Shown: positions 3,288-22,490 of the stretch, in pieces | How positions within the stretch are numbered: position 1 is the first letter of the stretch | How the letters are laid out: the number at the start of each line of letters is the position of its first letter | Assembly: GCA_018821985.1 (NCBI GenBank) | Contig: JAHJKP010000008.1 | Span: forward strand, 1-64,000 | Length of the DNA: 64,000 nucleotides | Direction: 5' to 3' | From: Pseudomonadota bacterium | Lineage (GTDB): Bacteria; Desulfobacterota; Desulfobulbia; Desulfobulbales; Desulfocapsaceae | Notes under the pieces: model-generated | The model's input: the letters and a program-made list of their open reading frames with translations, nothing else | What the model was told of the DNA's origin: nothing | Database searches by the model: none | Translations under genes and position numbers: made by a program

Positions 3288-4481
3288 TCAGCTTTTCATA
3301 GTCAAAAAATCCTCGAGGAGTCCGCTGATATCCCTTGCCAACACCTCGGCCTCAGCACGGTCGAAACGGACTGCCCGTTTGGCGTAACCGTGACAGTAGC
3401 GGCACTCTTCGCACAAGGTCTCTGCGCAGCGGATCTTCTGAAATCCCTGCAGAAATCCCTCCAACTCCGCATTGTCGATAGAGATATCAAAATCCAGAAG
3501 TCGGCGGCGTAATTTAAGCATGCGGAGCATCAGCTGCCGTTCTTCCGTGCCATAATGCCGCATCCGCTCCCGAACCTGATCTTCTATATCAGTGTGGAAA
3601 CCAGCCGGATCACCAAGCATCTCGAGAGAGATGATGTCTAACAGGTTACCCTTGTACTGCCGATCCGCGTAAGCCTGTGTCACTCGTAACAACCATGCTG
3701 TGGAGCGTGACCGATCAATAATTTTAAATTCATCGTAGCCCATGGCCTCGTATACATGCAGATCCTCGGGGCGGATCCAACGGCTCATCAAAAAAAGTTC
3801 CGGCTGCAGCAGACGCCTGCGTGTACACTGCCAGAGATAACAATCGATGAAGGCATGTGCCGGTGGCATTCCTTTCTGCACCTGGGATGCATGACCCACG
3901 CTGCTGGCGTGTTCAGCCAGATAATGGCAGTTGTAGATACAGGAGACGTTGACAAAGAGCTGCATACCGCAGGAGAGTCCTGAACGGATCTTTGGCAACA
4001 TGGTAAAGTCACGATTGAATTCACTATAGGGGATGATCAGGGGATCAACGCCAAGGGATTCCTGGTACTTGAGTCGCGGAAGATTAGTGGGCCAGCTCAA
4101 GACACTGCCCCTAATTCGCAGATCAGGAAAGTGACGGCGCACAAGCGTTACTACGGCCAGATTGGCAATGGAAACACTGTCGACCTTTATGGCGACCAAC
4201 TGCTCAATGAAGGCCAGAATTTCTTTTTTGCCCTCTTTAGTCTGTTCCAGGTTCCCGAGACAGGGTGCATTGATGAGGTAGCAAAACGATAACCCTTGCT
4301 CATGAGCCACCCGAATGTAGGCTTCAGCAAAATCCCAGTCCACGGAAGGCACGACACTACCGGACCTGCCCCCACCCACTATGTCAAAGGGTAACTTTGC
4401 ATAAATCGAAGTCACCTCAGGGATTTTCTTCAACCCTTCCAGCAAGCCCAGGTCCCAATTTGCAGCAACGCTCAATTTCAT
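3288..4481 (-). CDS. U32-family (UbiU/YdcP-like) iron-sulfur protein
   Basis: The 397-residue product has the U32 fold pattern: an 'AANWD' start, and a cysteine region with C171, C181, C185, C214 and C219. In characterised U32 proteins this region holds a [4Fe-4S] cluster. Well-studied members (UbiU/UbiV, RlhA, TrhP) take part in oxygen-independent hydroxylations, although the family is usually annotated as peptidase. An extra C-terminal set, C352-x4-C357-x2-C360-x2-C363, is unusual and may bind a second cluster. It is downstream of a methyltransferase on the same strand, and both are divergent from the ketosynthase operon. Hydroxylation of the cluster's product is an inference. Confidence 0.75.
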   Translation of the reverse strand: MKLSVAANWDLGLLEGLKKIPEVTSIYAKLPFDIVGGGRSGSVVPSVDWDFAEAYIRVAHEQGLSFCYLINAPCLGNLEQTKEGKKEILAFIEQLVAIKVDSVSIANLAVVTLVRRHFPDLRIRGSVLSWPTNLPRLKYQESLGVDPLIIPYSEFNRDFTMLPKIRSGLSCGMQLFVNVSCIYNCHYLAEHASSVGHASQVQKGMPPAHAFIDCYLWQCTRRRLLQPELFLMSRWIRPEDLHVYEAMGYDEFKIIDRSRSTAWLLRVTQAYADRQYKGNLLDIISLEMLGDPAGFHTDIEDQVRERMRHYGTEERQLMLRMLKLRRRLLDFDISIDNAELEGFLQGFQKIRCAETLCEECRYCHGYAKRAVRFDRAEAEVLARDISGLLEDFLTMKS

Positions 4482-4651
4482 TCATCTTCCTCTTAAACTC
4501 AGTTCATTTCAGCCTGATTACAGGGAGTAACAGCCTGGACGACGCCCCCGTCTCTGACAAAGAAAGGCTGCCGTCTTCAAGGGATACCATTGAGGAATCT
4601 TTTTTTCAACCGCAACCTTCCAAGGTCAGCCGGGGGTCGAAAAACAGACCG

Positions 4652-5332
4652 TCACAGTTCTTTGTTCAGCTGCCCGTAAACGGCAAACTGGCAAGGACTT
4701 ACCATCTTCACACAGAGATTTTCAGCCAGACCAGCTTCGTCCAGCTGAGAAGTGACCTCGTCCAGGGTAAATCCAGCACACAGGGAAAGCATCATGTCGT
4801 CACGCAACTGAAGAGGTGCATCCGGCATATAGTTATCCACAACCACCCGGGCCTGTTCCTCGTTTGTTGGTCTGACCAGATCAACGATCAGGATGGCTGC
4901 CTTTGGTCGGCCATAGGCATGGAGCGCATTCCACAGAACCATGGGGTCAGCAAGATGGTGCAGGAAGCTATTTGAGATGATCATCTCATAACGGCTGCGT
5001 GGCAGAAGAAGCTTGTTGGGAAGAATACCATGAATAAGCTGCACCTGATGCTCCAAGCCTTCTCGCCGCACGGCTTGCCTGCCATGTGCCAGCATCGGTG
5101 GCGCACCATCGACACCGTGTATCTCACAGTTGGGGAAAAGTCGAGCCAGACGCAGAGGGATGGCAGCCGGACCACACCCCAGGTCAAGAATTGCGCCTTC
5201 CGGCACCAAGTCGGGAAAGAACTTCCGCAAACACTGGACGAATAACCAATAGGCACTGTCCAGATGAGGCCCTGCATACGCCTCAGCCTGCTCAGGCCCG
5301 ACCATTAGTTCTGGTTCAGGAACTCGTTTCAT
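4652..5332 (-). CDS. Class I SAM-dependent methyltransferase
   Basis: The 226-residue product has a Rossmann-type methyltransferase core. Motif I (LDLGCGP) is at residues 49-55, an acidic motif II follows (IHGVDGAPPML), and a post-motif ISNSFLHHL matches the small-molecule methyltransferase pattern. A gap of about 170 bases separates it from the U32 gene on the same strand, so the two are probably co-transcribed. Together they face the dehydratase-ACP-radical-SAM operon across a long divergent region. The substrate is unknown; methylation of the lipid or polyketide product of the neighbouring cluster is inferred. Confidence 0.75.
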   Translation of the reverse strand: MKRVPEPELMVGPEQAEAYAGPHLDSAYWLFVQCLRKFFPDLVPEGAILDLGCGPAAIPLRLARLFPNCEIHGVDGAPPMLAHGRQAVRREGLEHQVQLIHGILPNKLLLPRSRYEMIISNSFLHHLADPMVLWNALHAYGRPKAAILIVDLVRPTNEEQARVVVDNYMPDAPLQLRDDMMLSLCAGFTLDEVTSQLDEAGLAENLCVKMVSPCQFAVYGQLNKEL

Positions 5333-5968
5333 GCCTCATCTTTCCTCTCACGTATGCCCGCAATTTTCTCACCAGCTGAATTCAAATGATACCTATAATA
5401 CTCAAGACATTTTTCTTTGCGTATCGTCCCAAAGAAAATGCAACGTTGCCCAAAGATTTTCCCACTTTTTTCTCCAATCTCGATATAATATCGATCTGTA
5501 AGGTCCAGTTTTTTAGCCTGTGACTGATTTCCGCTGATAGTTTGTTGTAAGGCAGCGTTCAGTCCACCAGAGTCCTAAACCCCTTATTAAAATGTTTTAT
5601 TCTTTTTTGCATGGTCTTTCGTTTTATAAGCAGCAAGCGCAGATTCTAAAGATCCGTTCCGACAAAAACAGAGCAGCGCCTGAAGCAGCTTGACGGTTTT
5701 GAGGAAAACGATTCGGTAATCACAGTCAAGAGGAGGCACAGGACATGGAGATCAGCTTGAAATCTTTGTTTTGCTGATCTTCTCCTCTCGAGAGATAGAT
5801 GAAATAGGAGTAGAATATTTGAACTTTTTTACTTTTCCTGTTACAAGCAATTGAGAAATTTTACTGGAGGCTAGATCGATTGTGACCAGAGCCATAATAT
5901 GCCGCAACAGGTGGATCAATTCCCCGAGAAATCGTGCTTCTGCAAACGAAGCTATCGGTAGATGATCC
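5333..5968. other. Divergent regulatory region between the two arms of the biosynthetic cluster
   Basis: This 636-base region separates the methyltransferase/U32 unit from the dehydratase/ACP operon and must hold both promoters, though no clear -35/-10 pair was found. It includes a 10-codon reading frame with a perfect AGGAGG (described separately). A second short frame starts at GTG 5880 behind a GGAGG and stops at 5965, three bases before the dehydratase ATG. On the minus strand an ATG near 5971 opens a frame of about 72 codons with protein-like composition, but it has no good ribosome binding site and no recognisable family. Confidence 0.4.
5745..5777 (+). other. Possible 10-residue leader peptide within a hairpin
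   Basis: ATG at 5745 follows a perfect AGGAGG (5731-5736) by 8 bases and encodes MEISLKSLFC before a TGA. The coding stretch lies in an 8-bp perfect inverted repeat, AGATCAGC (5749-5756) with GCTGATCT (5773-5780). A strong ribosome binding site on so short a frame, 200 bases ahead of the operon's first gene, fits a translated leader that controls downstream expression. It may also be coincidental. Confidence 0.3.
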
Positions 5969-6334
5969 ATGTGGTATTCATATCTTTCAGCAGAGCTCGA
6001 TGACAACGATGCCGTGGTAGCACAGGTGACCACAGACCAGCAATCCTCCTGGTATTGCGGGCATTTCCCTGATGACCCCATATTGCCGGGTATTGCCCAA
6101 CTGCATATGGTAAGCGCGACGATTGCCAAAGTCCTGCAGAAGGACCTTATTTTACAAAACCTTACGAGAATTAAATTTAAAAAACTCATACGGCCGGGAG
6201 ATGTGTTAGACATCCTTGCTGTTGCCGATAAGAAAAAAAACCAATTTGCTTTCCGCATTACCAGTGATCAGGAAGCCGTCTGTTCCGGCACCCTGACCCT
6301 GGCCCCTAAAGAGGAGATTGAAAAAAATTCATGA
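5969..6334 (+). CDS. FabZ-like 3-hydroxyacyl-ACP dehydratase (hotdog) with altered active site
   Basis: The 121-residue product is a single hotdog domain with the signature HFPDDPILPG at residues 32-41. This corresponds to the catalytic His region of FabZ and of the small dehydratases in aryl-polyene clusters. The position of the FabZ catalytic Glu, five residues after the PG, holds His46 instead. Activity may therefore differ, or the protein may work on another substrate. The ATG is the only usable start, because an in-frame TGA lies at 5963-5965. It overlaps the ACP gene by 4 bases and is the first gene of the plus-strand operon. Confidence 0.75.
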   Translation: MWYSYLSAELDDNDAVVAQVTTDQQSSWYCGHFPDDPILPGIAQLHMVSATIAKVLQKDLILQNLTRIKFKKLIRPGDVLDILAVADKKKNQFAFRITSDQEAVCSGTLTLAPKEEIEKNS

Positions 6335-6597
6335 ACGTAGATATTAGTCAGACAATTATCCGTATTGCCGAAATTATCATTAACGAACTCAAACTCGAAG
6401 ATGTTACCCCCCAGACCTTCGACCCTGATCTCGATCTGGTTGACGAGGTCGGTGTTGACTCCATGGATCTGGCAACCATTGCCTTGGTCCTGCGAGATGA
6501 ATACGGGATCAGGATCGACGAAGATGACTACCCCAAGTTGACAACCGTGCGCATTATTGCCGAGTATATCAACACCAAATTAGCGGACGACGAATAA
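6331..6597 (+). CDS. Acyl carrier protein
   Basis: The 88-residue acidic product has the four-helix ACP pattern with the phosphopantetheine attachment motif GVDSMDL; Ser44 is the predicted carrier residue. The start overlaps the preceding dehydratase stop as ATGA, showing translational coupling. It would carry the growing acyl chain for the two ketosynthases encoded downstream and probably presents substrates to the radical-SAM enzymes. As a dedicated ACP in the cluster, it marks the pathway as distinct from housekeeping fatty acid synthesis. That distinction is an inference. Confidence 0.9.
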   Translation: MNVDISQTIIRIAEIIINELKLEDVTPQTFDPDLDLVDEVGVDSMDLATIALVLRDEYGIRIDEDDYPKLTTVRIIAEYINTKLADDE

Positions 6598-7659
6598 GTG
6601 GCAACACAAGGCGCAGAAAACAGAGAATACAAATTTTCGGAGATCATAGCCGACCCGGCCATCCGTGCGCGTTGGGAAAAGGTGCGCAAATATTTTTTCC
6701 TGCGTGAATCCACCTATGACATGAGCAATCGCTGCAACATCCGCTGCGAAGGCTGCTATTACTTCAATGGTGAAAAACAGTTTGCCGAAGAGAATCTTCA
6801 TGTTGCAGACTGGAAACAGCTCATGGAGACCGAAAAAGAACGGGGTATAACCTTTGTCGTCCTTGCCGGTGCCGAGCCATCCTTGGTGCCGCAGTTATGT
6901 CAAACCTGCTATGATGTTATCCCCTTAGGATGCATTGCCAGTAATGGCCTGAAGGTGTTACCTCGGGAAATTGATTACCGCATTCACATCTCGGTCTGGG
7001 GAAACGATCAAACCAGCTTTGAAATACGCAAGGCCAAAGATATGCTGGCGCGGCAGATAGAAAATTACCGCAATGATCCCAGGGCCGTCTGGGTCTACAC
7101 CTTCACCCCGGTCAATATTGACCAGGCCCGGGAAGTAACTGAGCTTCTTGCCGAAAACGGCCACCAGATCACCTTTAATATGTTCTCCGCTCCCGTTGGA
7201 TACAACGGCCATCTGCGGCACACACCACATACCCTGGCCTATACCCGTGCCACCATGAGCGCACTGCTGAACGAATTTCCACAGACCGTTCTCTTTTCTC
7301 CTTACAATATAGTGGCCCATACCCATGAACGGGGACTGCACGATTTATTTTCCTGCTCCTACCCGCGGATGAACCCTTCCACCGATATTGGTCTGGGCAG
7401 ATCCTTTCGCCAATATCGTACCGACCTGCAGTGGGATCGGGCGGCCGCCTGCTGCGTCCCCGATACCGATTGTGATGACTGCCGGCATTATGCCGCTGGC
7501 AGTGCCGTGGTCACCGCCAGGATGTATCGCCATGCAACCAATCCGCTCACCTTTTCCGCCTGGCTGGACTACGTCGACACCTATCTGGCGGTCTGGGTCA
7601 GGGGGTATGAAAAAAGTACGAACCTTTGCCAAGAGATGATCGAACCGCCAAAGATATAA
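6598..7659 (+). CDS. Radical SAM protein, first of a paralogous pair
   Basis: The 353-residue product starts with GTG directly after the ACP stop codon. The radical-SAM cluster motif CNIRCEGC (C46, C50, C53) is in the N-terminal part. Near the C-terminus a C285-C286-x5-C292-x2-C295 group, with C253 before it, may bind an auxiliary cluster. The sequence around the motif (STYDMSNRC..RC.GCYYF) closely matches the next gene, so the two arose by duplication. Radical-SAM enzymes form a 5'-deoxyadenosyl radical to start difficult reactions. The reaction here is unknown; modification of an ACP-bound chain is inferred from position. Confidence 0.85.
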   Translation: MATQGAENREYKFSEIIADPAIRARWEKVRKYFFLRESTYDMSNRCNIRCEGCYYFNGEKQFAEENLHVADWKQLMETEKERGITFVVLAGAEPSLVPQLCQTCYDVIPLGCIASNGLKVLPREIDYRIHISVWGNDQTSFEIRKAKDMLARQIENYRNDPRAVWVYTFTPVNIDQAREVTELLAENGHQITFNMFSAPVGYNGHLRHTPHTLAYTRATMSALLNEFPQTVLFSPYNIVAHTHERGLHDLFSCSYPRMNPSTDIGLGRSFRQYRTDLQWDRAAACCVPDTDCDDCRHYAAGSAVVTARMYRHATNPLTFSAWLDYVDTYLAVWVRGYEKSTNLCQEMIEPPKI

Positions 7660-7813
7660 ATCTTTTTTTCTGGTACGCGACGGGCATGGAAGCAAGAGTA
7701 TCACTCGCGCCAGTGCCGGAATCTTCGCTTAGCTGGAGAGAAAGGAACAATAAGACAGTAAGCCAAATCACAACCTACTCTTTAATTCTGGAACACTAAT
7801 CTTCTTTCCTGCC

Positions 7814-8812
7814 ATGAAAACAGTCAGCTCCCTTCTCGATGATCACTGGTATGAGCGTTATAAACAGATATCAAAGCTCAATATCCGTAGTTCCATATAT
7901 GACGTAACAGACCGCTGCAATCTCCGCTGCAAGGGCTGCTTCTTCTTCTCCTCCGGTGAGCATGAACGGGCCTCGGAAGAAAATGACGTAAACAAATGGC
8001 ATGCCTTCGTGGACAAGGAGATGGATCGGGGGGTGAATCTGGCAATCCTCATCGGCGGTGAGCCCACTTTATGCCTGGACCGCATTGAGGCCTTTTACAA
8101 ACGGTTACCGACCTTCTGTGCCACCAACGGTCTGATCAAAGTGCCCAGAGACCGTTTTCCCGACATGATGGTCGGCCTGTCCCTGTGGGGGGATGAAGAG
8201 GATGAGAAAGCCTTGCGGGGAAAAGACACCTTTAAGATCACCAGCGCCAATTATGCTGGAGATCCGCATGCCTATTACCTCTATACCATCACCCCGAAAC
8301 AACTGGGAAAGACCGGCAAGATCATTCAAAAAATTGAGGATATCGGCCTGAAGGTGCACATGCAGTTGCTCTCCAATGACGAGGATGTTGCCGGTTTTTC
8401 CTGGAAGCCGGAAGAGCTGATTGACGTACGGGCAGAGATGGATGCCATGCTGGATGCCTACCCGAAGACGGTTATCTCCTCCAAATATTACCACCAGATT
8501 ATCACCACCGGCCAGATGCTCGACCGAACCTTCGGCTGGATGGAGTGCCCCTCGGTCACGGAACTCATAGACAAACGTGAGCCCCGTCCCAAACGTCTCA
8601 CCAATTTTATCCGCTGGGCATCGGATCTGAAGACCGTGCACCGCTGCTGCACCTCAGAAACCCGCGATTGTTCGACCTGTAAAGATGGCGCGGCCCACAT
8701 GAGCTGGGTCATGGTCAACAAACGGGCCCACATGAGAAGCACAGAGGATCTGCAAAATTGGATTGAGGTCTACGAGATGTTTGCCAAACTCTATCAGTTT
8801 ATCCCCTGGTAG
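7814..8812 (+). CDS. Radical SAM protein, second of a paralogous pair
   Basis: The 332-residue product carries CNLRCKGC (C35, C39, C42). It repeats the C-terminal group of its neighbour as C278-C279-x6-C286-x2-C289, with C245 before it. It lies 154 bases after its paralogue, and that gap shows no gene. Its TAG stop overlaps the GTG start of the first ketosynthase by one base, so translation of the two is likely coupled. Both paralogues keep all putative cluster cysteines, so both are probably active. Whether they act on the same intermediate or work as a heterodimer cannot be told from sequence. Confidence 0.85.
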   Translation: MKTVSSLLDDHWYERYKQISKLNIRSSIYDVTDRCNLRCKGCFFFSSGEHERASEENDVNKWHAFVDKEMDRGVNLAILIGGEPTLCLDRIEAFYKRLPTFCATNGLIKVPRDRFPDMMVGLSLWGDEEDEKALRGKDTFKITSANYAGDPHAYYLYTITPKQLGKTGKIIQKIEDIGLKVHMQLLSNDEDVAGFSWKPEELIDVRAEMDAMLDAYPKTVISSKYYHQIITTGQMLDRTFGWMECPSVTELIDKREPRPKRLTNFIRWASDLKTVHRCCTSETRDCSTCKDGAAHMSWVMVNKRAHMRSTEDLQNWIEVYEMFAKLYQFIPW

Positions 8813-10071
8813 TGCCATCCATAGAGGACAATAAGCCGGTCATCATCGGCTATGACGCCATCTCGGCTCTGGGAAGTGATCTGGAGGATCAATGGCAGCG
8901 TGCTCTTCGGGGGGAAAGCGGTATCGGCCCACTGACCCGTTTTCCCCTCAGTCCTGATTTTCCAGTTCGCATTGCCGGTCAGCTCCCCGACATTGACGGA
9001 CTCCCCTATCCCTTTCTTTCTGCCAGACATCAGGCCAGCTGGAGTTCTCCGGTATTCAAATACGGTATGCTCTCTGTGGCCCGCGCCCTGGAACGGAGCG
9101 GACTTGAGATAAGTCCTGAACTCGCTCCCAGGGTGGCGGTCACCTACAGCTCAGCCATCGGCGGGCTGGATGCGGTCCTGCATGCCGACCGCCGCATGCA
9201 GTCAGAGAACAAACTCCCCGCCCCATACGCAAATCCCAACTCCTGTATCAACATGGTGGGCGGTAAGATCGCCATCCAGACAGGGGCTCAGGGTCCAATT
9301 GTCTCCACTATCACGGCCTGTGCCACCGGTCTCACTTCCATGCTTATCGGCGCCATGTTCCTGGCCCAGAACAGAGCCGATGTGGTTATCTGTGGGGCAG
9401 TTGATTTTGCTCTGGTGGAACCAATCGTCGCCGGTTTTTATACCATGAACGGCGTTTATAGCCCTAAAGAGGGGCAGGACGAAGGCCCCCCGCAATCCGC
9501 CAGCCGCCCATTTTCCCAAAATCGGCGAGGTTTTGTCCTCTCCGAGGGAGCAGGCGCCGTCATCCTGGCCAGCAGGAAATTTGCCCTAAGCCATGGCCTG
9601 CCTTTCACTACCGAACTGGCCGGGTGGGGCATGACCTCCGATGCGCACCATTTTGTGGCGCCTTATGGTAAAACCATCAAGAAGTGTATGCAGGATGCCA
9701 TACGTGATGCGGGAATTGCTCCTGAGGATATTGCCGCCGTCAATGGGCACGCCGCCTCAACCCGGGTGGGAGACAAGGTCGAATATGACGCCCTGCGGGA
9801 ACTTTTCGGTAGCAAGATGCCACCGGTATCGGCCAATAAATCTCTTATCGGGCATGCCATGGGTGCATCCAGCGTGCTTGAATCCATCTTTGCCATCCAG
9901 GGTATGCAGGAGGATGTACTCCTCCCCACCATCAACTACCAGGCTGACCCGGAAATCGACATCGACTGTGTGGCGGATACAAAAAGACAACTCCCTCAGG
10001 AGTATGTTTTGAAAAACTCGTTCGGCTTTGGCGGCTGTAACAGCTGCGCCGTATTTAAACGAGTAAATTGA
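8812..10071 (+). CDS. Beta-ketoacyl-ACP synthase, first of a pair
   Basis: The 419-residue product is a FabF/KS-II-type thiolase-fold enzyme. The nucleophile Cys170 lies in TACATG, with His313, Lys343 and His348 (NKSLIGHAMGAS) in the expected places. The usual NxHGTST loop reads NGHAAST, an odd replacement of Gly-Thr by Ala-Ala beside the catalytic His. The start is a GTG overlapping the preceding stop (TAGTG). It pairs with the next gene, as in type II polyketide and aryl-polyene systems where two ketosynthase-like subunits act together. It condenses malonyl-ACP with the growing chain; chain specificity is unknown. Confidence 0.88.
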   Translation: MPSIEDNKPVIIGYDAISALGSDLEDQWQRALRGESGIGPLTRFPLSPDFPVRIAGQLPDIDGLPYPFLSARHQASWSSPVFKYGMLSVARALERSGLEISPELAPRVAVTYSSAIGGLDAVLHADRRMQSENKLPAPYANPNSCINMVGGKIAIQTGAQGPIVSTITACATGLTSMLIGAMFLAQNRADVVICGAVDFALVEPIVAGFYTMNGVYSPKEGQDEGPPQSASRPFSQNRRGFVLSEGAGAVILASRKFALSHGLPFTTELAGWGMTSDAHHFVAPYGKTIKKCMQDAIRDAGIAPEDIAAVNGHAASTRVGDKVEYDALRELFGSKMPPVSANKSLIGHAMGASSVLESIFAIQGMQEDVLLPTINYQADPEIDIDCVADTKRQLPQEYVLKNSFGFGGCNSCAVFKRVN

Positions 10072-10097
10072 AAAGAAGGCCTCTGGGTTAAGGTTTT

Positions 10098-11363
10098 ATG
10101 AAAGCACCGCTCAACAGAAGAGTTTTCGTTGTCGGCTATGGCGCAGCCACTGCCCTTGGCAACACCTTCAGCAAGACCTGGCAGGCAGCTGCTGCCGGAC
10201 AGGCCGGATTCCGAAGGGTCAGCAGGTGCGAGACAAACAGCCGCAGCAATGTCGTGGGAGAGATTCCTGACTGGGATCCGTCGCAGTTCTCCTATGTGAC
10301 CAGAAAAGAGGCCTCTATCTGGGATGCATCCTATGTCTTTTTGACCATGGAGATGTGCCGCCAGGCACTTGCCCACGCCGGCCTGGAAATGGACAGTCAG
10401 ACAGGGCCACGAACCGCCTGTCTGATCGGTTCGGCCTTGAACGGTACGGACTCTTACCGGATTGCCATGGATCATTATGTCAACCTGGGTCCGTTAAAGG
10501 TCAGCCCCTATCTGCTGCCCAATGTCTGTGCCAATCTACCGGCCGGTAAAGCTGGGATGCTGCTGGGATTCACCGGGCCGATCTTTTCTCCCCAGGGAGC
10601 CTGCGCCTCGGCCAACCACGCCATTGCCATCGGCTCCCGCATGATTCGCGACGGCGACTGCGATTTCGCCCTGGTCGGAGGCGTCGAGACCTGCCTGGTA
10701 CCGGAAATAATTCAGGGATTTTCCAATATGCTGGCAACGATCAAAGTGGGTCCCAAGGATCGAGCCTATGACGATCCCAGCCAAGCCTCACGGCCCTTCA
10801 GCCTCGACCGGAAAGGTTTTGTCCTTTCCGAGGGAGCAGGAGTGCTGGTTCTGGCCGCAGAAGAGAAGATGAAGACATTAGGTCTGCAGCCAAAGGCGGA
10901 GATTGCAGGTATCGGCTGGACCTCTGATGCCAAGCATTTCACCCGGCCAAATGCGGAAACCATTATCCTGGCCATGCAGAACGCCATTGATGATGCAGAA
11001 TTGAGCCCGCAGGATATTGGCAATATCAATGCCCACGGCACCTCAACCCCAACCGGCGATGCAACGGAAGTGGAATGTCTGCGGGAGGTCTTCGGCAAGG
11101 GAATTGGACGCATCCCCATCACTGCCAATAAATCACAGCTAGGTCACAGCTTAGGCGCCTCCGCGGCCATCGAAGCAGCCCTGTCCATTGAGGCCATGTC
11201 CAGATCCCTGCTCCTGCCCACGGTGAACCACATTCCAGACCCGGCCTTTGATGACCTCGATCTTGTTCCTAACCAGACCCGCAAACATGGCTACGAACAT
11301 GTCCTGTCCAACTCCTTCGGTTTTGGCGGCACCAACTGCTGTATTGTCTTTAAAGGGGTATAA
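10098..11363 (+). CDS. Beta-ketoacyl-ACP synthase, second of a pair
   Basis: The 421-residue product has the complete KS catalytic set: Cys169 in GACASA, His313 in the canonical NAHGTST loop, Lys345, and His350 in NKSQLGHSLGAS. It begins 26 bases after the first ketosynthase. Both subunits keep the nucleophilic Cys, so neither is an obvious inactive chain-length factor. Two condensing enzymes suggest either a heterodimer or two phases of chain building. No ketoreductase lies in this cluster, so reduction probably uses the housekeeping enzyme or one encoded elsewhere. Confidence 0.9.
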   Translation: MKAPLNRRVFVVGYGAATALGNTFSKTWQAAAAGQAGFRRVSRCETNSRSNVVGEIPDWDPSQFSYVTRKEASIWDASYVFLTMEMCRQALAHAGLEMDSQTGPRTACLIGSALNGTDSYRIAMDHYVNLGPLKVSPYLLPNVCANLPAGKAGMLLGFTGPIFSPQGACASANHAIAIGSRMIRDGDCDFALVGGVETCLVPEIIQGFSNMLATIKVGPKDRAYDDPSQASRPFSLDRKGFVLSEGAGVLVLAAEEKMKTLGLQPKAEIAGIGWTSDAKHFTRPNAETIILAMQNAIDDAELSPQDIGNINAHGTSTPTGDATEVECLREVFGKGIGRIPITANKSQLGHSLGASAAIEAALSIEAMSRSLLLPTVNHIPDPAFDDLDLVPNQTRKHGYEHVLSNSFGFGGTNCCIVFKGV

Positions 11364-11410
11364 TCATGTACCTGAATATGGTTAACAGAACAAAACGATA
11401 AGAGAAGACG

Positions 11411-11893
11411 ATGCGACCAAAACGGTTTATCCCTGAGTTGCTCCCAGAGCACCCATCCCATGTCCGAGATAAAAATAGTAACAAAATATGGCATCGCTGC
11501 GAGATGCGAACCCTCTATGTTGACACGGATCGCTCCCAGGTAGTTTATCATGCCAATTATCTCAGGTATTTTGAATTCGGCAGGGCCTCACTCATGCGGG
11601 AGGCAAACTATCCGTACAAAAAGATAGAGGAAAGCGGCTACATCTATCCCATCATCAAGACCGAGCTCAATTATTACACTCCCCTCTACTATGATGATCT
11701 GATGCTCATTCACACCCGGCCGGCACAGCTGGAACTGGTGAAGCTGCAATTTGATTATTGCATCACCAGGGCCGAGGACGGGGAAATTATCTGCACCGGC
11801 TTTACCAAACATTGTGCGGTGAACAATGACGGCATTCCCGTGGAGATCGATGACAAGACAATCAAGCTTTGGCAGCAATTCCCCCGAGAATGA
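11411..11893 (+). CDS. YbgC/4HBT-family acyl-thioesterase
   Basis: The 160-residue product is a hotdog protein with the 4-hydroxybenzoyl-CoA thioesterase signature VDTDRSQVVYHANYL at about residues 37-51, including the catalytic Asp. Such enzymes release acyl chains from CoA or ACP. Similar thioesterases are regular members of aryl-polyene-type clusters. The coding region ends in an ATGA overlap with the dehydratase that follows. The first 25 or so residues precede the domain, and a later start is not excluded. Confidence 0.85.
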   Translation: MRPKRFIPELLPEHPSHVRDKNSNKIWHRCEMRTLYVDTDRSQVVYHANYLRYFEFGRASLMREANYPYKKIEESGYIYPIIKTELNYYTPLYYDDLMLIHTRPAQLELVKLQFDYCITRAEDGEIICTGFTKHCAVNNDGIPVEIDDKTIKLWQQFPRE

Positions 11894-12750
11894 TGGTCCA
11901 CCAACAGCCTGTTACGATAACTGTCCAGCCCTGGTTCAGGGACCATTGTTTTAATGGGAAAGTGATTCTGCCGGCAGTGGAGACAATGGAGATCATGGCC
12001 GCTGCTGTCAAAGAGAGCGGAACGGATGCTTTTCTCAGGGGAATGTACGATGCCAAATTTTCCAAATTTCTGGAGATCCCTGAAGGGGCAACAGAGTTGT
12101 CTGCCCTGGTGGAGTATGATGAAGGAGACGAGGGGGAGATAGGGGTCAAACTGCTCAGCCGCGCATGTTGCAAAAAGGTCACCAGGATCAAAGAACATGC
12201 CCGGATAACATTTTCGAATCGTCCGCAAAAGAGTGATAAGACGATGCCTATTAACCAGCTTTTATCCACCCAACCAACCGGCTCCGTGGCAGCAAAGCGC
12301 ATTTATGAGGAACTCGTCCCCTTTGGCCCATCTTACCACACCTTGACGGGGCATCTCCACCTCTCAAATCTCGCAGCCTGGGGCACCCTGCAGGCACCCA
12401 ATCTCCCGCAGGGACGAGATATGGTAAAAGAGCTTGGTTCACCCTTTCCCCTTGATGGAGCCATGCATGCCGCCTGCGTTTTTGGCCAGACTATTACCGA
12501 TTTCGTTCCCTTTCCGGTGGGTTTTGCCGAACGGATAATCCACAGGCCGACCAGAGCAGGAGCACAATACAGCACCACAGTGGTTCTTGTGAGCCAAGAC
12601 AGCGATGAACTTGTTTTTGACCTTTCTATTTTTGATGCAGCAGGAAAGCCCTGTGAAACAGTGAAAGGATTACAGATGCGGGATGTCAGCGGCGGTCAGA
12701 TCAAACCCCAGGACTGGATCAAAAGAGACCGAATCCTGGTCTCAGGATAA
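11890..12750 (+). CDS. PKS-type double-hotdog dehydratase
   Basis: The 286-residue product matches the dehydratase domain of polyketide synthases. The N-terminal hotdog has HxxxGxxxxP (HCFNGKVILP, His19 and onward), and the C-terminal hotdog has DxxxH (LDGAMHAA). These supply the His/Asp catalytic pair. It is a stand-alone protein rather than part of a modular synthase. The ATG at 11890 is chosen because it makes a 4-base overlap with the thioesterase stop; a TTG at 11869 would add seven residues. With the FabZ-like gene it gives the cluster two dehydratases, pointing to a product with several double bonds. The 3' end overlaps a convergent gene by 9 bases. Confidence 0.8.
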   Translation: MMVHQQPVTITVQPWFRDHCFNGKVILPAVETMEIMAAAVKESGTDAFLRGMYDAKFSKFLEIPEGATELSALVEYDEGDEGEIGVKLLSRACCKKVTRIKEHARITFSNRPQKSDKTMPINQLLSTQPTGSVAAKRIYEELVPFGPSYHTLTGHLHLSNLAAWGTLQAPNLPQGRDMVKELGSPFPLDGAMHAACVFGQTITDFVPFPVGFAERIIHRPTRAGAQYSTTVVLVSQDSDELVFDLSIFDAAGKPCETVKGLQMRDVSGGQIKPQDWIKRDRILVSG

Positions 12751-13125
12751 TTCGGGAGAAACCAGGGAAAGCAATTTTTCGACAGTGACTCTGCTGAACC
12801 AGCGCAAGAAAATTACCGAGTACTTGGCACCGGAAAAATACATCCCCAGAAGAAACACCAGATGCGAAAAGCCATAAACCAAAGGCCCCCCAATCACAGC
12901 AATCAAGGGTTCATTCAGTTTCGCAGCGGCAATGCCACATGCGGCAACCGCTGGCCAACCAAGGGGAAAGCTTATGCAGATTAAGAAAACTCCGGCAATG
13001 ATCTTCAAGGATGGCTTTTCCTTGAAATCCGACAAGTCTGCCTGTTCTTCGATGGCGGCACGGACAAAATCGGTACCGGCAATCGTTACCACAAGTTTTC
13101 TGAAAAAGGATATCATCTTATCCAT
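12742..13125 (-). CDS. Small membrane protein of unknown function
   Basis: From the ATG at 13125 the product is 127 residues. It has a charged N-terminal segment (residues 1-45) and then two to three hydrophobic stretches (IIAGVFLICISFPLGWPAVA, IAVIGGPLVYGFSHLVFLLG). No family was recognised. An in-frame ATG at 13266 would add 47 basic residues but reads against the start of the glycosyltransferase gene, so the shorter form is preferred. It is convergent with the dehydratase and lies inside the biosynthetic cluster on the opposite strand. A link to product export or membrane insertion is possible but unsupported. Confidence 0.55.
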   Translation of the reverse strand: MDKMISFFRKLVVTIAGTDFVRAAIEEQADLSDFKEKPSLKIIAGVFLICISFPLGWPAVAACGIAAAKLNEPLIAVIGGPLVYGFSHLVFLLGMYFSGAKYSVIFLRWFSRVTVEKLLSLVSPELS

Positions 13126-13228
13126 GGATCTCTTACATGACTTTCGTTTACCATCAACAGAGACTGTCTCCTGTTGTCTTTTTACACCACAAAGCTTTCC
13201 TCCGCCAACTCTTTTACACGGGTAAGAC

Positions 13229-13939
13229 ATGGCACCACTTGCTGATCCTTGGCTTTTTTTTGACAAAATCTATTGTATCTCAATAGACAAACGCCTGGAT
13301 AGACGAACGGAAGCAAAAAAGCAGTTTGCCGCTGTTGGTCTGCTGGAGCGGGTGGAGTTTGAGCTGGTCACAAAACATCCTGACAATCAGGAAAAAGGGA
13401 TCTTCCAATCCCATATGCATTGTCTGCACAAAGGCTTACAAGCCGGGGCACGCCATATCCTGATCTTTGAAGATGATATTTTTTTTCAAGATTTTAACGC
13501 CCAAGCCTTACAGCAGGCAAATATTTTCCTGCAAAATCTGCCTGCCTGGAATGGTTTTTTCCTGGGAGCTCTCAGCAGCAAGATGACCAGGACAGCTGAA
13601 CGAGTGGTGGTGAAAATAGAGTACCGCTGTCTGGCCCATGCCTATGCGCTCAACCGTCCCTTTGCGGAGGCGCTCGTTCAGGAGCCTTGGGATGGCATTC
13701 CATTTGATAACCTCCTGCGCAGCCACTGTCAGGATTTTTTTGCCCTCTATCCCATGATTGCTTTTCAAGGCCGGGCCAGCACCGATAACCAGACCATTGT
13801 TCTTGACAAGATGCGGAGATTTTTCGGCGGCCTGCCATTTATCCAGAAGACAAATGAAGCTTTTCAACGCCACAAACAACTGATTATCTCTCTTCACCTT
13901 CTTTTTTTCATGGCCCTGACGCTGTTCCTCATGATATGA
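13229..13939 (+). CDS. Glycosyltransferase, family 25-like, with C-terminal membrane anchor
   Basis: The 236-residue product opens with KIYCISIDKRLDRR, close to the 'YVINLDRRxDR' start of family 25 (LgtB/LpsA type) glycosyltransferases. An EDD metal or donor-binding motif lies at residues 81-83. The last 20 residues form a hydrophobic helix that would tether it to the inner membrane. Family 25 enzymes add galactose or glucose to lipooligosaccharide or protein. Its place before the MMPL exporter suggests that it glycosylates the cluster's lipid product. Confidence 0.7.
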   Translation: MAPLADPWLFFDKIYCISIDKRLDRRTEAKKQFAAVGLLERVEFELVTKHPDNQEKGIFQSHMHCLHKGLQAGARHILIFEDDIFFQDFNAQALQQANIFLQNLPAWNGFFLGALSSKMTRTAERVVVKIEYRCLAHAYALNRPFAEALVQEPWDGIPFDNLLRSHCQDFFALYPMIAFQGRASTDNQTIVLDKMRRFFGGLPFIQKTNEAFQRHKQLIISLHLLFFMALTLFLMI

Positions 13940-13964
13940 CGGGCAGGGCAACAGACCTGTAACC

Positions 13965-16900
13965 ATGCTTAAATCATTCAACTACCCTCTGATTGCCGTT
14001 GTTTTCATCCTGATCATCGGCACGGCTGCCATAGGTATCCTTCGCCTGGATATCGATACCGATGTCGTCCGCTCTCTGCCGTCTGATCAAAGTGTGATCA
14101 GCGATGCCCTGGAAATATTTACCAATCATCCCATTCACGACCAGATTGCAGTGGACATCACGCTCGACAGGGATGATCCAAACATTCTGATAGAATGTGG
14201 AGAGCTCGTTGAACAGAAGCTCCGGGCAAGCGGCCTCTTTGCAGAAGTGGGCATAAATGAAGTCAGTAAACTGCTCCCAGATCTTGCCCTCCATATTGTC
14301 ACCAACCTGCCGATCATGTTCTCCCAAGAGGAACTTGAGCAAGAGATCACCCCCCGGTTGGGAAAAGACTTCATCCAGCAGCGCCTGAATGAACTCCTGC
14401 TGAAGCTGAGCAGTCTTGAAGGCATTGGCCAGTCCACATTTATGGCAGCAGACCCCCTGGGTCTCATGGAACCGGTCATGGCCAAAATAGCCCTGCTGGC
14501 GCCCTCCACCGAATCAAGGATCTATAAAGGCCACCTTCTTTCGGCAGATAACCGCCACCTCCTGGTGACCGCACGGCCCAGAACTGCCGGCACGGACACG
14601 GCTTCAGCTCAACAGATCTCAGCATTACTTGCCACGATCACAGAAGATCTCGACCATAAATATACTCCCGGGGGGATCAACGTCACCCTCACGCCAGTGG
14701 GGGCCTATCGGGCCGCACTGGACAATGAACGCATCATCCGCCACGACGTCCAATTGGCCCTCCTGCTCTCAACCGCGGGCATTGGACTGCTTCTCTTTTT
14801 TGCCTTTCCCAGGCCCCTGCTCGGTCTCTTTTCCCTGCTGCCCGCCTTTGCCGGTACTGCGGCTGCCCTGTTTGTCTTTTCTCTGTTTCATCCTTCCATC
14901 TCCATCATGGTCCTAGGCTTTGGCGGCGCCATTATCTCCATCACCGTCGACCATGGTATCGCCTACCTGCTCTTTCTTGATCGTCCGCAAGAGACCAAGG
15001 GTAAAGAGGCATCACGGGAAGTCTATGCGGTGGGCATACTGACTGTCCTCACCACCATAGGTGCTTTTCTTATTCTTAGTTTCAGCGGCTTTCCCATTTT
15101 TGTTCAATTAGGCCAGTTCACGGCCCTGGGGGTCCTTTTTTCCTTTCTTTTTGTCCACTCCATCTTTCCCCGTCTCATTCCTTCCCTTCCCCCGGCCAAA
15201 GAACGGAGCCTCCCTCTGCAGGGATTGGTGGACAGGCTCTATCGTACTGGACCTATCGGGGCCGGATTCGCTGTTGCCCTGGCACTTGTCTTGCTCTTTT
15301 TCGCTCATCCCCAATTTAATGTCAGCCTGGAAAGTATGAATACGGTGAGCAGCGAGACCCTGGCAGCCGACCAGATGTTTGCAACCGTCTGGGGAAATAT
15401 GGGTAAGAGGATTTTCTTGATGGTTAAAGGGGGCTCAATAGATGAGATCCAACAGAAGTTGGATCTCATCCTCCAGAAAATCAATGCCGATAAAAAGGCG
15501 GATATTCTCCAATCCGCTTTTGTTCCATCAATGATATTTCCAGGCACCCTGAGGACCAGGGACAACCTGACTGCCTGGAAGCAGTTCTGGAACCGGGAAA
15601 AGATAGCGAAACTGCAAAAAGAGATGGAGACAAGCGGAGCTGCCCTGGGCTTTGCCCCGCATGCCTTTGATCAGTTTCTGGGGTTGTTGCAGGCACCATT
15701 ACAAGCCACCGCCTTTCTTATTCCTTCCCGTTATTATCAGTTGATGGGCATATCGGAAAAGGAGGGCAGTCTGGTCCAGTTTATCACTCTTTCTCCGGGG
15801 GCAAGATATAACAGCCAAAACTTTATTGATCGTTATGGTCAAGATGCCAAGATTTTTGACAGCCCCTTCTTTTCTGCACAGCTGGCAAATATTCTCTTTA
15901 CCACCTTTGCCACAATATTAGGGATCATTGCCGTAAGCATTGCGGTCTTGCTCTTTCTCTTTTTTCTGAGCTGGCAGCTGACACTCATTACCCTGCTCCC
16001 CCCTCTCTTTTCCTATATCTGCACCTTGGGAACCATGAAACTGATTGGCCATCCGCTGGACATCCCCAGTCTGATGCTCTCAATTATTATCCTGGGGATG
16101 GGCATCGACTACTCCATTTTCTTTGTCAAGGCCCACCAGCGATACCGAAATCCCGACCACCCTGCATTCCAACTGGTACGCATGGCAGTTTTTATGGCAG
16201 CAACATCCACTCTCATCGGCTTTGGCGTCCTCTGCCTTGCCGAACATTCCCTGTTGCGCAGTATTGGGATCACTTCCTTGCTGGGCATCGGTTATTCACT
16301 GCTCGGCGCCTTTCTCCTTCTGCCGCCCCTGTTGCAGGCCTTTTTTTCCGATAAAAAGCAACCAGCTACGGAACAATCCCTTTCCCAGCTCATTCTGGGC
16401 CGCTATCGTCTCATGGAGGCCTATCCAAAGATGTTTGCCCGTTTCAAGCTGAAATCCGACCCCATGTTTAACGATCTGGCAGCACTTCTGGCAGGATATA
16501 AAGCCGATATCAAGATGATCCTTGATATCGGCTGCGGCTACGGGGTTCCCGGCTGTTGGTGTCTGGAATATTTTCCACAGGCAAACATCATTGCTATGGA
16601 TCCCGATCCGGAACGAGTAAGAGTGGCAGCCATGGCCATGGGAGAGAGAGGAACAATCGTCGAGGATGGCGCGCCCAACCTGCCTGCTCTTGCCAGGCCA
16701 GCTGATCTTGTGCTGCTGCTGGACATGCTCCATTATCTGGATGACGAAACAATGACGACTCTTTTTACCAACTGCTTGCAGGCCCTTGCGCCAGGGGGCA
16801 TAGTGGTGATACGTTATGCCATTCAGCTGGAGGCTTCTCGGTCCAGATCCTGGCTGCTTGAAGATTACAGGGTCAAGTTTTCAGGAGGCAAGCCCTGGTA

Positions 16901-17036
16901 CCGTTCGCCGGAAAGGATGGCTGGACTCATGACCAATGCCGGTTTTCATATTGAAACGAACATGGTATCACCAAGAAATAGTGAACTGGTCTGGCTGATC
17001 GGTCGAGCTGGAAAAGATGAAACTACCGACAAATAG
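13965..17036 (+). CDS. MMPL/RND-type lipid exporter fused to a SAM methyltransferase
   Basis: The 1,023-residue product has two repeats, each with one membrane helix, a large periplasmic domain and a bundle of five helices. The bundles include GGAIISITVDHG in the first repeat and GMGIDYSIFF in the second; Asp residues there are expected for proton-driven MMPL transporters. From about residue 840 a cytoplasmic class I methyltransferase domain follows, with motif I LDIGCGYG at about 853-860. Exporter and methyltransferase are often separate proteins in related clusters, so the fusion is notable. It probably moves the finished or precursor lipid across the inner membrane. The last 20 bases overlap the deacetylase gene. 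Confidence 0.88.
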   Translation: MLKSFNYPLIAVVFILIIGTAAIGILRLDIDTDVVRSLPSDQSVISDALEIFTNHPIHDQIAVDITLDRDDPNILIECGELVEQKLRASGLFAEVGINEVSKLLPDLALHIVTNLPIMFSQEELEQEITPRLGKDFIQQRLNELLLKLSSLEGIGQSTFMAADPLGLMEPVMAKIALLAPSTESRIYKGHLLSADNRHLLVTARPRTAGTDTASAQQISALLATITEDLDHKYTPGGINVTLTPVGAYRAALDNERIIRHDVQLALLLSTAGIGLLLFFAFPRPLLGLFSLLPAFAGTAAALFVFSLFHPSISIMVLGFGGAIISITVDHGIAYLLFLDRPQETKGKEASREVYAVGILTVLTTIGAFLILSFSGFPIFVQLGQFTALGVLFSFLFVHSIFPRLIPSLPPAKERSLPLQGLVDRLYRTGPIGAGFAVALALVLLFFAHPQFNVSLESMNTVSSETLAADQMFATVWGNMGKRIFLMVKGGSIDEIQQKLDLILQKINADKKADILQSAFVPSMIFPGTLRTRDNLTAWKQFWNREKIAKLQKEMETSGAALGFAPHAFDQFLGLLQAPLQATAFLIPSRYYQLMGISEKEGSLVQFITLSPGARYNSQNFIDRYGQDAKIFDSPFFSAQLANILFTTFATILGIIAVSIAVLLFLFFLSWQLTLITLLPPLFSYICTLGTMKLIGHPLDIPSLMLSIIILGMGIDYSIFFVKAHQRYRNPDHPAFQLVRMAVFMAATSTLIGFGVLCLAEHSLLRSIGITSLLGIGYSLLGAFLLLPPLLQAFFSDKKQPATEQSLSQLILGRYRLMEAYPKMFARFKLKSDPMFNDLAALLAGYKADIKMILDIGCGYGVPGCWCLEYFPQANIIAMDPDPERVRVAAMAMGERGTIVEDGAPNLPALARPADLVLLLDMLHYLDDETMTTLFTNCLQALAPGGIVVIRYAIQLEASRSRSWLLEDYRVKFSGGKPWYRSPERMAGLMTNAGFHIETNMVSPRNSELVWLIGRAGKDETTDK

Positions 17037-17847
17037 AGAACAGAAAGGCTCTCTTTCGCCAGCAGAAAAAATCGGATTTACTGCCTTTCTGCTTGCCGCC
17101 CTGCTCTTTTTTTTCGATCCCTGGCTCGCCACGCTTCCCCTGTTCCTCTTTCTGATACTCTGCTTTGCAGCACCGTTTTTCCCGCAGATCGGCTTCTTCC
17201 TCCCCATAATCAGCCGAAGCGTCACCGGCAGCAAAGGAGTAGCCCTCACCTTTGATGACGGCCCCTCTCCCTCTTCCACACCAATAGTGCTCGAACTACT
17301 GGCCCGATATCAGCTCAAAGCCACCTTCTTTGTGGTCGGTGAGAAGGCAGCCCGACATCCAGATCTGATTGCCGACATTCTTGTCCAGGGGCACAGCATC
17401 GGCAATCATTCCTGGCAGCATGACAATCTGCTGATGCTGAGAAGCCGGAAGAGATTACAGCAGGATATTCATCAAACCCAGGAAGTTTTAAAACAATCAG
17501 GAATTCAAACCCTTGTTTTCCGCCCTCCGGCCGGGATAAGCAATTCACGCCTGAAACAGGTACTTCTCGATGAAAATCTGGTAACCGTCACCTTCAGCTG
17601 CCGGATTTTTGATCAGGGAAACAAGAAGATCACAAATCTGGCCCGGCGCGTCCTGCATAAACTCAAACCAGGAGACATCCTCCTCCTGCATGACATCGCT
17701 CCGGAAAAAGAAGCAATGACAACCTACTGGACAAATGAGCTGAACACCCTTTTTTCCTCTCTGCGCAAAGGCAGCTACGACATCCAGCCGCTGGAAAGAC
17801 TGATTGGCCAGCCGGCAATGATTTTCCTGAAAAACAAAGAGTTTTGA
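17017..17847 (+). CDS. Membrane-anchored polysaccharide deacetylase (NodB domain)
   Basis: The 276-residue product has two N-terminal hydrophobic helices (residues about 18-65) and then a NodB-type domain. Motif 1 is TFDDGP, the metal-binding HSWQHDN group follows, and motif 3 is RPPAG. The active-site Asp and His residues are present. Family members remove N- or O-acetyl groups from sugars with a divalent metal. It overlaps the exporter gene by 20 bases and is the last gene of the plus-strand operon. It may deacetylate a sugar added by the glycosyltransferase; that link is inferred. Confidence 0.85.
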   Translation: MKLPTNREQKGSLSPAEKIGFTAFLLAALLFFFDPWLATLPLFLFLILCFAAPFFPQIGFFLPIISRSVTGSKGVALTFDDGPSPSSTPIVLELLARYQLKATFFVVGEKAARHPDLIADILVQGHSIGNHSWQHDNLLMLRSRKRLQQDIHQTQEVLKQSGIQTLVFRPPAGISNSRLKQVLLDENLVTVTFSCRIFDQGNKKITNLARRVLHKLKPGDILLLHDIAPEKEAMTTYWTNELNTLFSSLRKGSYDIQPLERLIGQPAMIFLKNKEF

Positions 17848-17850
17848 GCG

Positions 17851-17901
17851 AATCTGCAGCCCTCTTTTACAAGGACGTAAGGGAAATGAGGGCTGCAGAT
17901 T
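17851..17901. terminator. Bidirectional terminator-like inverted repeat
   Basis: A perfect 14-bp inverted repeat pairs AATCTGCAGCCCTC (17851-17864) with GAGGGCTGCAGATT (17888-17901) across a 23-base loop. It lies between the convergent deacetylase and transglutaminase genes, where both operons should stop. There is no long T-tract on either side, so termination strength is uncertain. Confidence 0.6.
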
Positions 17902-17909
17902 ATTCTTGT

Positions 17910-21065: not shown

Positions 21066-21244
21066 TGTTGTCCCCTCATCTCTATTTTTCTCAGAAAAAG
21101 CTCTTCAGAGAGCTTTTATTAAACTGCGAACAAGCAAGATCAAAGGACGAAATATTGCCGACAAGTAACTATTAGTCAAATAGGAAATTCCGATATGAGT
21201 TGGCAGAATTATGGGTTTTCCGAATATTCTGAAGACAATGTCAC

Positions 21245-21295
21245 AAAACAAAAAAGGCCTGATGTCCCACAATCAATACGAGATCATCAAGCCTT
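21245..21295 (-). terminator. Rho-independent terminator after msrAB
   Basis: On the minus strand AAGGCTTGATG (21295-21285) pairs with CATCAGGCCTT (21264-21254), with one G-U pair, and is followed by a T-rich run (21253-21245). It lies just downstream of the msrAB stop, in the orientation of that gene. Confidence 0.75.
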
Positions 21296-21317
21296 CTTAC
21301 CTTCGAACTGCTACATG

Positions 21318-22367: not shown

Positions 22368-22391
22368 GACATCCTCCAGGGAATCATTATT

Positions 22392-22406
22392 TGAGAATCA
22401 TTCTCA
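22392..22406. promoter_or_regulatory. Fur-box palindrome upstream of msrAB
   Basis: TGAGAATCATTCTCA is a perfect 7-1-7 palindrome, matching the Fur consensus core TGATAATNATTATCA at 13 of 15 positions. It starts 25 bases upstream of the msrAB ATG, between that gene and the divergent pyrG gene. A GAATCATTAT half-site lies beside it (22381-22390). Iron-dependent repression of msrAB is inferred; a PerR-like regulator could use a similar site. Confidence 0.65.
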
Positions 22407-22490
22407 ACAAAGGACAAGATAGTTACGGCAAGGCAGAAAAACAAGTAAAGAAATGTCTTCTCGTGTCCATCTTTTTTATTCCAAAAATAA

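Follow-up and report, generated by a model that had tools for sequence, protein, structure and literature searches.

Clusters of type II fatty acid synthesis (FASII) genes with S-adenosylmethionine (SAM) enzymes and phytoene dehydrogenases were described in 2009 as syntenic between Kuenenia and Desulfotalea psychrophila (Rattray 2009, PMC2649909). Its printed review gives kuste3342/DP1853 and kuste3343/DP1855 as related SAM radical enzymes; in D. psychrophila, the study itself found C31:8 and C31:9 hydrocarbons and no ladderanes (PMC2649909). The Kuenenia genes kuste3335–3352 and kuste2802–2805 were later tabulated (Javidpour 2016, PMC4790861, Table 2), attempts to elucidate the pathway in Escherichia coli having been unsuccessful, and a Cariaco study made ladderane-type cluster calls of unknown function in Desulfobacterota (PMC9902471). 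Because similar Desulfotalea and Kuenenia clusters were published in 2009, this kind of cluster was already known. Here, we analyze one in a Desulfocapsaceae genome (G000, 99.85% complete), starting from a window (the whole 64,000-base stretch examined, bases 1–64000 of the 127,602-base contig C57) in which the genes at 3288–17847 had been predicted to form a new biosynthetic system. Compared by gene class, not by sequence identity, the cluster resembles those of kuste3342/3343 and DP1853/DP1855: the Kuenenia stuttgartiensis and Desulfotalea candidates share with it two SAM radical enzymes, FabZ, acyl carrier protein (ACP), FabF copies, FabG, acyl-CoA ligase, a membrane lipid transporter, a deacetylase-like protein, phytoene desaturase, and a B12 SAM radical enzyme. 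What we add is the full composition, a fixed module of radical-SAM and ketosynthase (KS) genes, the aryl polyene (Ape) identity of the other half, and an exchange between a U32 protein and a B12-radical-SAM enzyme, none of which was met in the available parts of PMC2649909, PMC4790861, and PMC9902471.

The window and a second contig of the same genome, C53, very probably carry the two halves of one lipid gene cluster of about 44 kb in Desulfobacterota. Base 1 of the window is a contig end, a fact overlooked in the original prediction and partly why its half looked novel, and further KS genes of G000 were found on C53. In G376, a two-contig genome, counterparts of the C53 genes are contiguous with those of the window's dehydratase-to-deacetylase stretch (C1:148098–192173, ~44 kb), with a B12-radical-SAM gene at the place of the U32 and methyltransferase genes, and with the GT25, MMPL, and deacetylase genes a few kb apart; the second B12 enzyme of C53 was matched only weakly (no specific query was used). 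The sister genome G002 has window-type genes and a fusion of KS and chain-length factor (KS-CLF) on one contig. The joining of C57 and C53 in G000 is inferred from these relatives, because their ends have no common sequence of at least 14 bases in the first 3 kb of each. Ketoreductase and AMP-ligase genes, which the original prediction had not seen, are both on C53 and contiguous with the window half in G376, so their absence is ruled out.

Co-inheritance of the two halves was followed in 93 genomes of the family (limits 1e-15 for the radical-SAM protein rSAM2, 1e-120 for KS-CLF, and 1e-150 for the ketosynthase KS4). The rSAM2 profile matched 49 genomes (48 rSAM2 proper; G382 by an rSAM1-range match only), KS-CLF was found in 46, and KS4 in 49. 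Among the 54 good genomes (≥90% complete, ≤5% contaminated; presence lists compared by eye), all three occur in the same 30 and are absent from the same 24. Outside these 54, KS4 occurs without rSAM2 in G013, G368, G374, G381, and G401, rSAM2 without KS-CLF in G356, G371, G406, and G422, and rSAM2 without KS4 in G356, G366, G383, G391, and G422; these twelve discordant genomes are 59–89% complete.

Within the window half, eight plus-strand genes form a core: an ApeI/FabZ-like hotdog dehydratase (5969–6334; HFPDDPILPG), a dedicated ACP (6331–6597), two radical-SAM proteins, rSAM1 (6598–7659) and rSAM2 (7814–8812), two ketosynthases, KS1 (8812–10071) and KS2 (10098–11363), a YbgC/ApeK-like 4HBT thioesterase (11411–11893), and a polyketide synthase (PKS)-type double-hotdog dehydratase that keeps HxxxGxxxxP and DxxxH (11869–12750). 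Like all genes listed by the original prediction, they are real, intact open reading frames at about the predicted positions with matching Pfam domains, packed tightly with several overlaps. KS1 and KS2 both carry the Cys-His-Lys-His set of E. coli FabF in alignment. We compared the best 80 of 314 rSAM2 relatives kept from a contig scan (named loci, whose titles are all Desulfo-, deltaproteobacterial, or plain Proteobacteria/bacterium names), scoring each gene only where the flanking sequence was long enough. Neighbors of rSAM2 are rSAM1 (72/75), ACP (71/73), the hotdog dehydratase (64/66), KS1 (68/69), KS2 (62/62), thioesterase (58/60), and PKS-type dehydratase (53/55), and each of these neighbors recurs in 18–19 of 20 loci from a draw across the phylum (four on contigs already among the 80). 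Pooled, 72 of these 100 loci (four repeating a contig) have all eight core genes, always in the same order and in 71 cases on one strand throughout, with loci missing a gene left out of the order count. This gene order is conserved far beyond chance, and the predicted union of the radical-SAM genes and the KS pair in one unit stands. In L127, a locus outside the order count, KS1 lies between the two radical-SAM genes. Strong rSAM1 and strong KS2 matches each occur in 16 of 38 genomes (G000 included), together in 15, the odd genomes G001 and G022 being 76% and 87% complete. The rSAM2 profile finds 24 of the 296 genomes of the phylum draw, G000 among them, at E≤1e-30, with G051 matching only at 1.9e-35, and 42 pattern matches on viral contigs included no relative. 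Record titles name several carriers by strain or culture collection, namely Desulfofustis glycolicus DSM 9705, Desulfogranum japonicum DSM 18378, Desulfosarcina widdelii PP31, and Desulfobulbus rhabdoformis DSM 8777; these are in pure culture.

The C53 half, assigned in part by scoring close orthologues from G012 and G008 against Pfam, begins with the KS-CLF fusion (C53:263–2398, minus strand) and an ACP (2404–2661, minus strand), followed by a FabG-like ketoreductase (7091–7828), LolA (7822–8430), a DUF3261-like protein (8523–9245; G012 orthologue 20.8 bits against a cut-off of 22.3), a B12-radical-SAM protein (9242–10507), the AMP-ligase (11719–13134), and a DegV/FakA-like protein (13131–14843). 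Listed between the latter and the ApeR-like KS4 (16808–18055) are a GT2 glycosyltransferase, an LpxL-type acyltransferase, and an ACP; a PlsC-type acyltransferase, a second B12-radical-SAM protein (from 18860), a SPASM radical-SAM protein (20544–21590), a phytoene-desaturase-like protein (21594–23087), and a PEMT-like protein (23059–23646) complete the set. A 3316-codon open frame follows soon after this half (L122 4380–14330).

To place the cluster relative to aryl polyene clusters, the 18 proteins of E. coli CFT073 apeA-R (c1186–c1204; gene roles from PMC8253772) were compared by phmmer (E≤1e-3) with 42 proteins of G000 from C57, C53, C36, and C26. Thirteen of the 18 were matched (ApeC, D, E, F, H, I, J, K, L, M, O, Q, and R), every one with its best match on C57 or C53. 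ApeR matched KS4 best (301 bits against 241 for a FabF-like C26 protein), and ApeO the KS-CLF fusion (181 against 163 bits for the C26 protein), which was also the best match of ApeC (30 bits). ApeQ matched the ketoreductase, ApeH the AMP-ligase, ApeD the PlsC protein, ApeE and ApeF ACPs, ApeJ the GT2 and LpxL proteins, ApeK the window thioesterase, and ApeM the window MMPL protein. The exporter, dehydratase, and thioesterase are therefore aryl-polyene-like as predicted, by their ApeM, ApeI, and ApeK matches. Among eight housekeeping controls from E. coli, FabH, FabD, MnmC, and Tmk had no match in the 42 proteins, FabF and FabB matched the C26 protein best, AcpP the window ACP, and FabG a C36 ketoreductase (206 bits; C53 ketoreductase 193). 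An ApeR-type KS, ketoreductase, ApeI dehydratase, thioesterase, AMP-ligase, MMPL, and LolA are thus all present, with AMP-ligase, ketoreductase, LolA, and KS4 on C53 and the others in the window; the ApeO/ApeC-type KS-CLF is the C53 fusion, outside the window itself. Like apeA-R, the cluster has LolA, DUF3261-like, and MMPL transport proteins. Unlike apeA-R, its KS and CLF are fused, ApeJ is matched by separate GT2 and LpxL-type proteins, and ApeA, B, and G are not found. Beyond apeA-R, it has rSAM1/rSAM2, KS1/KS2, the PKS-type dehydratase, B12-radical-SAM proteins, and the phytoene-desaturase-like protein.

A KS tree of 75 rows, in which E. coli ApeO, ApeR, FabF, and FabB were the only outside references, joined KS4 with ApeR (100/100) and the KS half of the fusion (KSn) with ApeO (99/93), whereas KS1 and KS2 formed sister clades (100/100) next to FabF, apart from ApeO and ApeR. 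Their own clade rules out KS1 and KS2 as Ape or housekeeping ketosynthases. Ape-type ketosynthases are therefore present without counting KS1 and KS2, which belong to the radical module. The original prediction had reserved the case that the missing Ape genes lay nearby outside the window and that its KS pair fell inside an aryl polyene clade: the former is what we found, whereas the tree places the pair elsewhere. With a large part of the Ape set present, an ordinary aryl polyene pigment cluster, whose radical-SAM module only supplies or decorates an aromatic starter by anoxic hydroxylation or methylation of the head group, is a possible though rather unlikely alternative. In favor of it, the best NCBIfam match of the AMP-ligase is 4-coumarate-CoA ligase, though far below cut-off (114.6 against 334.7 bits). 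Against it, such a pigment cluster would leave unexplained why the radical-SAM pair is firmly tied to an ACP, a PKS-type dehydratase, and two additional ketosynthases, and the cluster shows no source of an aromatic starter.

The paralogues rSAM1 and rSAM2 are 28% identical and score 23.4 and 26 bits against Pfam Radical_SAM, below its cut-off of 29.5. Their radical-SAM identity is backed by CxxxCxxC and, for rSAM2, also by the modeled fold. C-terminally, rSAM1 carries CCx5CxxC and rSAM2 CCx6CxxC; in rSAM2, CxxxCxxC and the four C-terminal cysteines (C278, C279, C286, and C289) are invariant across 54 rows. A model of rSAM2 from this 54-row alignment reached a predicted local distance difference test (pLDDT) score of 89 (46 from 13 close rows), with 62–79 over residues 241–290, which hold the C-terminal cysteines. 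It suggests a SPASM/twitch-like fold: by VIA, SkfB (6efn; Z 18.5, 239 aligned, root mean square deviation 3.7) and BlsE (7vob; Z 18.0, 259 aligned, 3.6) tied for first place, followed by SuiB (17.4), anSME (17.0), and then other SPASM enzymes and viperins, with the archaeal tetraether synthase at Z 13.5, and the top Foldseek matches were anSME and a sactipeptide maturase. By sequence, rSAM2 had no match in the PDB at E≤0.01, and rSAM1 matched only SkfB. Unlike SkfB and BlsE, to both of which it is 15–16% identical, rSAM2 is surrounded by acyl-thioester genes, not by recognized precursor peptides. Plasmids carry homologues of rSAM2 as well (15 records, 28–33% identity over 94–100% of rSAM2), at one copy per plasmid in Burkholderia, Alteromonas, Methylomagnum, and Tistrella (L152, L153, L154, and L155), and the four aligned have the same cysteines. 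In the three annotated contexts examined (the Tistrella record is unannotated), the Burkholderia stagnalis homologue lies by a thioesterase gene, with ACP and adenylation genes some kb off, that of Alteromonas macleodii Te101 adjoins a MaoC dehydratase, and that of Methylomagnum is beside ACP and nonribosomal peptide synthetase (NRPS) genes. Because the plasmid homologues sit beside thioesterase, MaoC, and ACP/NRPS genes, we read rSAM1, rSAM2, and their homologues as a putative acyl-thioester family with a presumed radical reaction. The Burkholderia and Alteromonas homologues also adjoin a gene annotated as a phenylacetic acid catabolic protein.

The original prediction had included a U32-family iron-sulfur protein (3288–4481, minus strand) among the core parts of the system. 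The protein passes the PF01136 cut-off (31.2 against 22.4 bits, over residues 87–151 only), had no match in the PDB by sequence at E≤0.01, and has ten cysteines invariant in eight orthologues, including a C-terminal CX4CX2CX2C. Its occurrence in 8 of 80 named loci and in 12 of 49 cluster-bearing family genomes (0 of the 44 others) rules it out as a core part. A SAM methyltransferase gene (4652–5332, minus strand; Pfam) adjoins the U32 gene in 11 of 11 loci showing the latter (nine distinct contigs, as L025=L042 and L070=L139). The pair is an optional part, whose place in most genomes is taken by a B12-radical-SAM enzyme (hereafter, B12rSa) of the rSAM_ladder_B12 family. Between KS-CLF and rSAM1, U32 plus methyltransferase was found in four loci (three contigs), B12rSa in 54, and neither in two, one of which (L084) has U32 elsewhere in its genome; these loci are partly redundant. 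In a set of 32 genomes, some of them chosen for their context, 11 have U32 orthologues (≥77% identity) and 21 have B12rSa orthologues (≥52%), with both in G341 and neither in G152. The status could be read in 40 of the 49 family genomes that bear the cluster, the other nine being truncated or outside the examined set: 11 have U32 only, 25 B12rSa only, one both (G404, the same as G341), and three neither (G409, G410, and G423), a Fisher p-value of about 2e-6 with relatedness ignored. U32 was sought genome-wide, whereas B12rSa was mostly sought only beside radical-SAM or KS-CLF genes; in nine of the 12 U32 carriers it was sought genome-wide, and in G001, G002, and G006 only in the neighborhood (0.9 kb in G001). 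Both types occur within the genus of the window genome.

For pigment synthesis with a decorated starter, it is favorable that the U32 proteins UbiU and UbiV act in O2-independent hydroxylation of ubiquinone synthesis (PMC6747719), and that the methyltransferase beside the window U32 weakly matches many families, UbiE, UbiG, and MenG among them. Like UbiU and UbiV, the window U32 has the U32 domain and invariant cysteines, and it is co-encoded with a methyltransferase. Unlike them, it is a single gene, and its spacing (CX9CX3CX33C plus C-terminal CX4CX2CX2C) is neither that of UbiU nor that of UbiV (PMC6747719).

The B12rSa of L028 exceeds the cut-off of NCBIfam TIGR04072 rSAM_ladder_B12 (370.6 against 360 bits). 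Together with the 2009 clusters (PMC2649909), this makes the ladderane and sulfate-reducer lead given in the original prediction a real one. It also speaks for genuine ladderane synthesis by the pathway assumed in anammox bacteria, as does the similarity in gene classes to kuste3335–3352 and kuste2802–2805 (PMC4790861). Such a pathway is nevertheless very unlikely here: ladderanes were not found in D. psychrophila (PMC2649909), and the window genome, unlike the Kuenenia and Desulfotalea clusters, has U32 plus methyltransferase instead of the TIGR04072 enzyme, with no match to TIGR04072 at E≤1e-30 (5/17 candidates scored) and none to B12rSa at E≤1e-60 (13/13 scored). With at most five candidates scored per genome, TIGR04072 was exceeded in 66 of 296 phylum genomes, 50 of them without the rSAM module, and in 16 of the 23 that bear rSAM2. 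Proteins of G323, G266, and others reach up to 698 bits in genomes without an rSAM2 match, and their scores point to another lineage of ladderane-family B12-radical-SAM enzymes.

A phytoene-desaturase-like protein, a mark of ladderane-type clusters, is present both on C53 (21594–23087) and in the G376 cluster. It agrees with an anaerobic route to polyunsaturated fatty acids or hydrocarbons, as proposed in 2009 for D. psychrophila with its C31:8 and C31:9 compounds and its Kuenenia-syntenic FASII genes. This explanation is quite improbable, given Ape-type export and attachment genes in the cluster and another possible source of such hydrocarbons, which a 2019 paper links in marine gammaproteobacteria to Pfa synthase and, by term counts, OleA (PMC6463001). 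A second KS-ACP group of G000 with two phytoene-desaturase-like proteins, a ketoreductase, and a FabA-like protein (C36:262185–267857; L023 8185–13857) is reminiscent of the DP2405/DP2406 pair (PMC2649909).

We consider the cluster to be probably an anaerobic, aryl-polyene-type outer-membrane lipid cluster of sulfate reducers with radical tailoring on an acyl-ACP. Several results weigh against this. The matches of ApeL (LolA, 18.7 bits), ApeF (21.8), and ApeI (window dehydratase, 23.5) are weak, and ApeA, ApeB, ApeG, ApeN, and ApeP had no phmmer match in the 42 proteins. Pfam scores for ApeP-like and DUF3261-like proteins come from relatives alone, with DUF3261 just below cut-off, and no ApeP-like dehydratase was identified in G000. 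The aryl head is putative, as the cluster shows no ammonia lyase (enzymes for an aromatic starter were not sought genome-wide). The tree program flags possibly false long-branch joins, KSn-ApeO and KS1-KS4 among them, and the Fisher tests do not allow for relatedness. L055, L117 (a 3-kb contig), L120, and L128 have rSAM2 without adjacent rSAM1, although L128 comes from G079, where a second copy includes both. The fold matches of rSAM2 are for the most part maturases of ribosomally synthesized and post-translationally modified peptides, together with viperins, and not acyl-ACP enzymes; none of the latter was among the 50 VIA matches listed, which excludes nothing.

Beyond the core, the window cluster contains a GT25-like glycosyltransferase (13229–13939; 34/80 named loci), an ApeM/HpnN-like MMPL exporter with a fused methyltransferase domain (13965–17036; 31/80; Pfam, NCBIfam), and a polysaccharide deacetylase (17017–17847; 24/80), all on the plus strand (counts uncorrected for contig limits). 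On the minus strand, a gene for a small membrane protein, as judged from its sequence (12742–13266; no Pfam match), missed by the original prediction, was found in 39 of 80 named loci; it overlaps the start of the glycosyltransferase gene and keeps its position in many related loci. Between cluster and contig end, 415–2886 encodes an acyltransferase-3 and a Fic protein with DUF4172 and Fic domains; in the sister genome G012, an ABC/HlyD/OEP efflux set occupies this place.

In the pathway whose substrate, order of steps, radical reaction, and product we infer here, the C53 AMP-ligase would load an acid onto ACP, and KS4, KS-CLF, the ketoreductase, and the ApeI-type dehydratase (in relatives also an ApeP-type one) would build a conjugated polyene, as homology suggests. 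The rSAM1/rSAM2 unit would then act on the acyl chain carried by the dedicated ACP, abstracting hydrogen to give desaturation or C–C ring closure; KS1, KS2, and the PKS-type dehydratase would lengthen and dehydrate the modified chain before its release by the thioesterase. Radical action on an acyl-ACP is somewhat likely, and ring closure by this step is unlikely. Slightly less likely again is the specific proposal that rSAM1 and rSAM2 work together as a two-enzyme acyl-ACP radical cyclase, forming carbon rings on a polyene bound to the dedicated ACP before KS1/KS2 finish the chain, with the same family performing the ring-forming step of anammox ladderane synthesis. The ladderane-family B12-radical-SAM enzyme, or here the exchanged U32 and methyltransferase, may add oxygen and/or methyl. 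By Ape homology, the two acyltransferases and GT2 would link the chain with a lipid head, and transport of the lipid to the outer membrane would fall to MMPL, LolA, and DUF3261.

The scattered lead of 2009 thus becomes a defined and widespread system, an aryl polyene core with a fixed radical-SAM/ketosynthase module that sulfate reducers keep or lose as a unit. Because it has carriers in strain collections, ladderane-associated radical enzymes become testable outside the slow-growing anammox bacteria, and the exchange of U32 plus methyltransferase with a B12-radical-SAM enzyme provides a natural experiment for studying hydroxylation or methylation under anoxia. If the cyclase proposal were true, the unsolved anammox ladderane pathway could be approached through a tractable version in cultured sulfate reducers.

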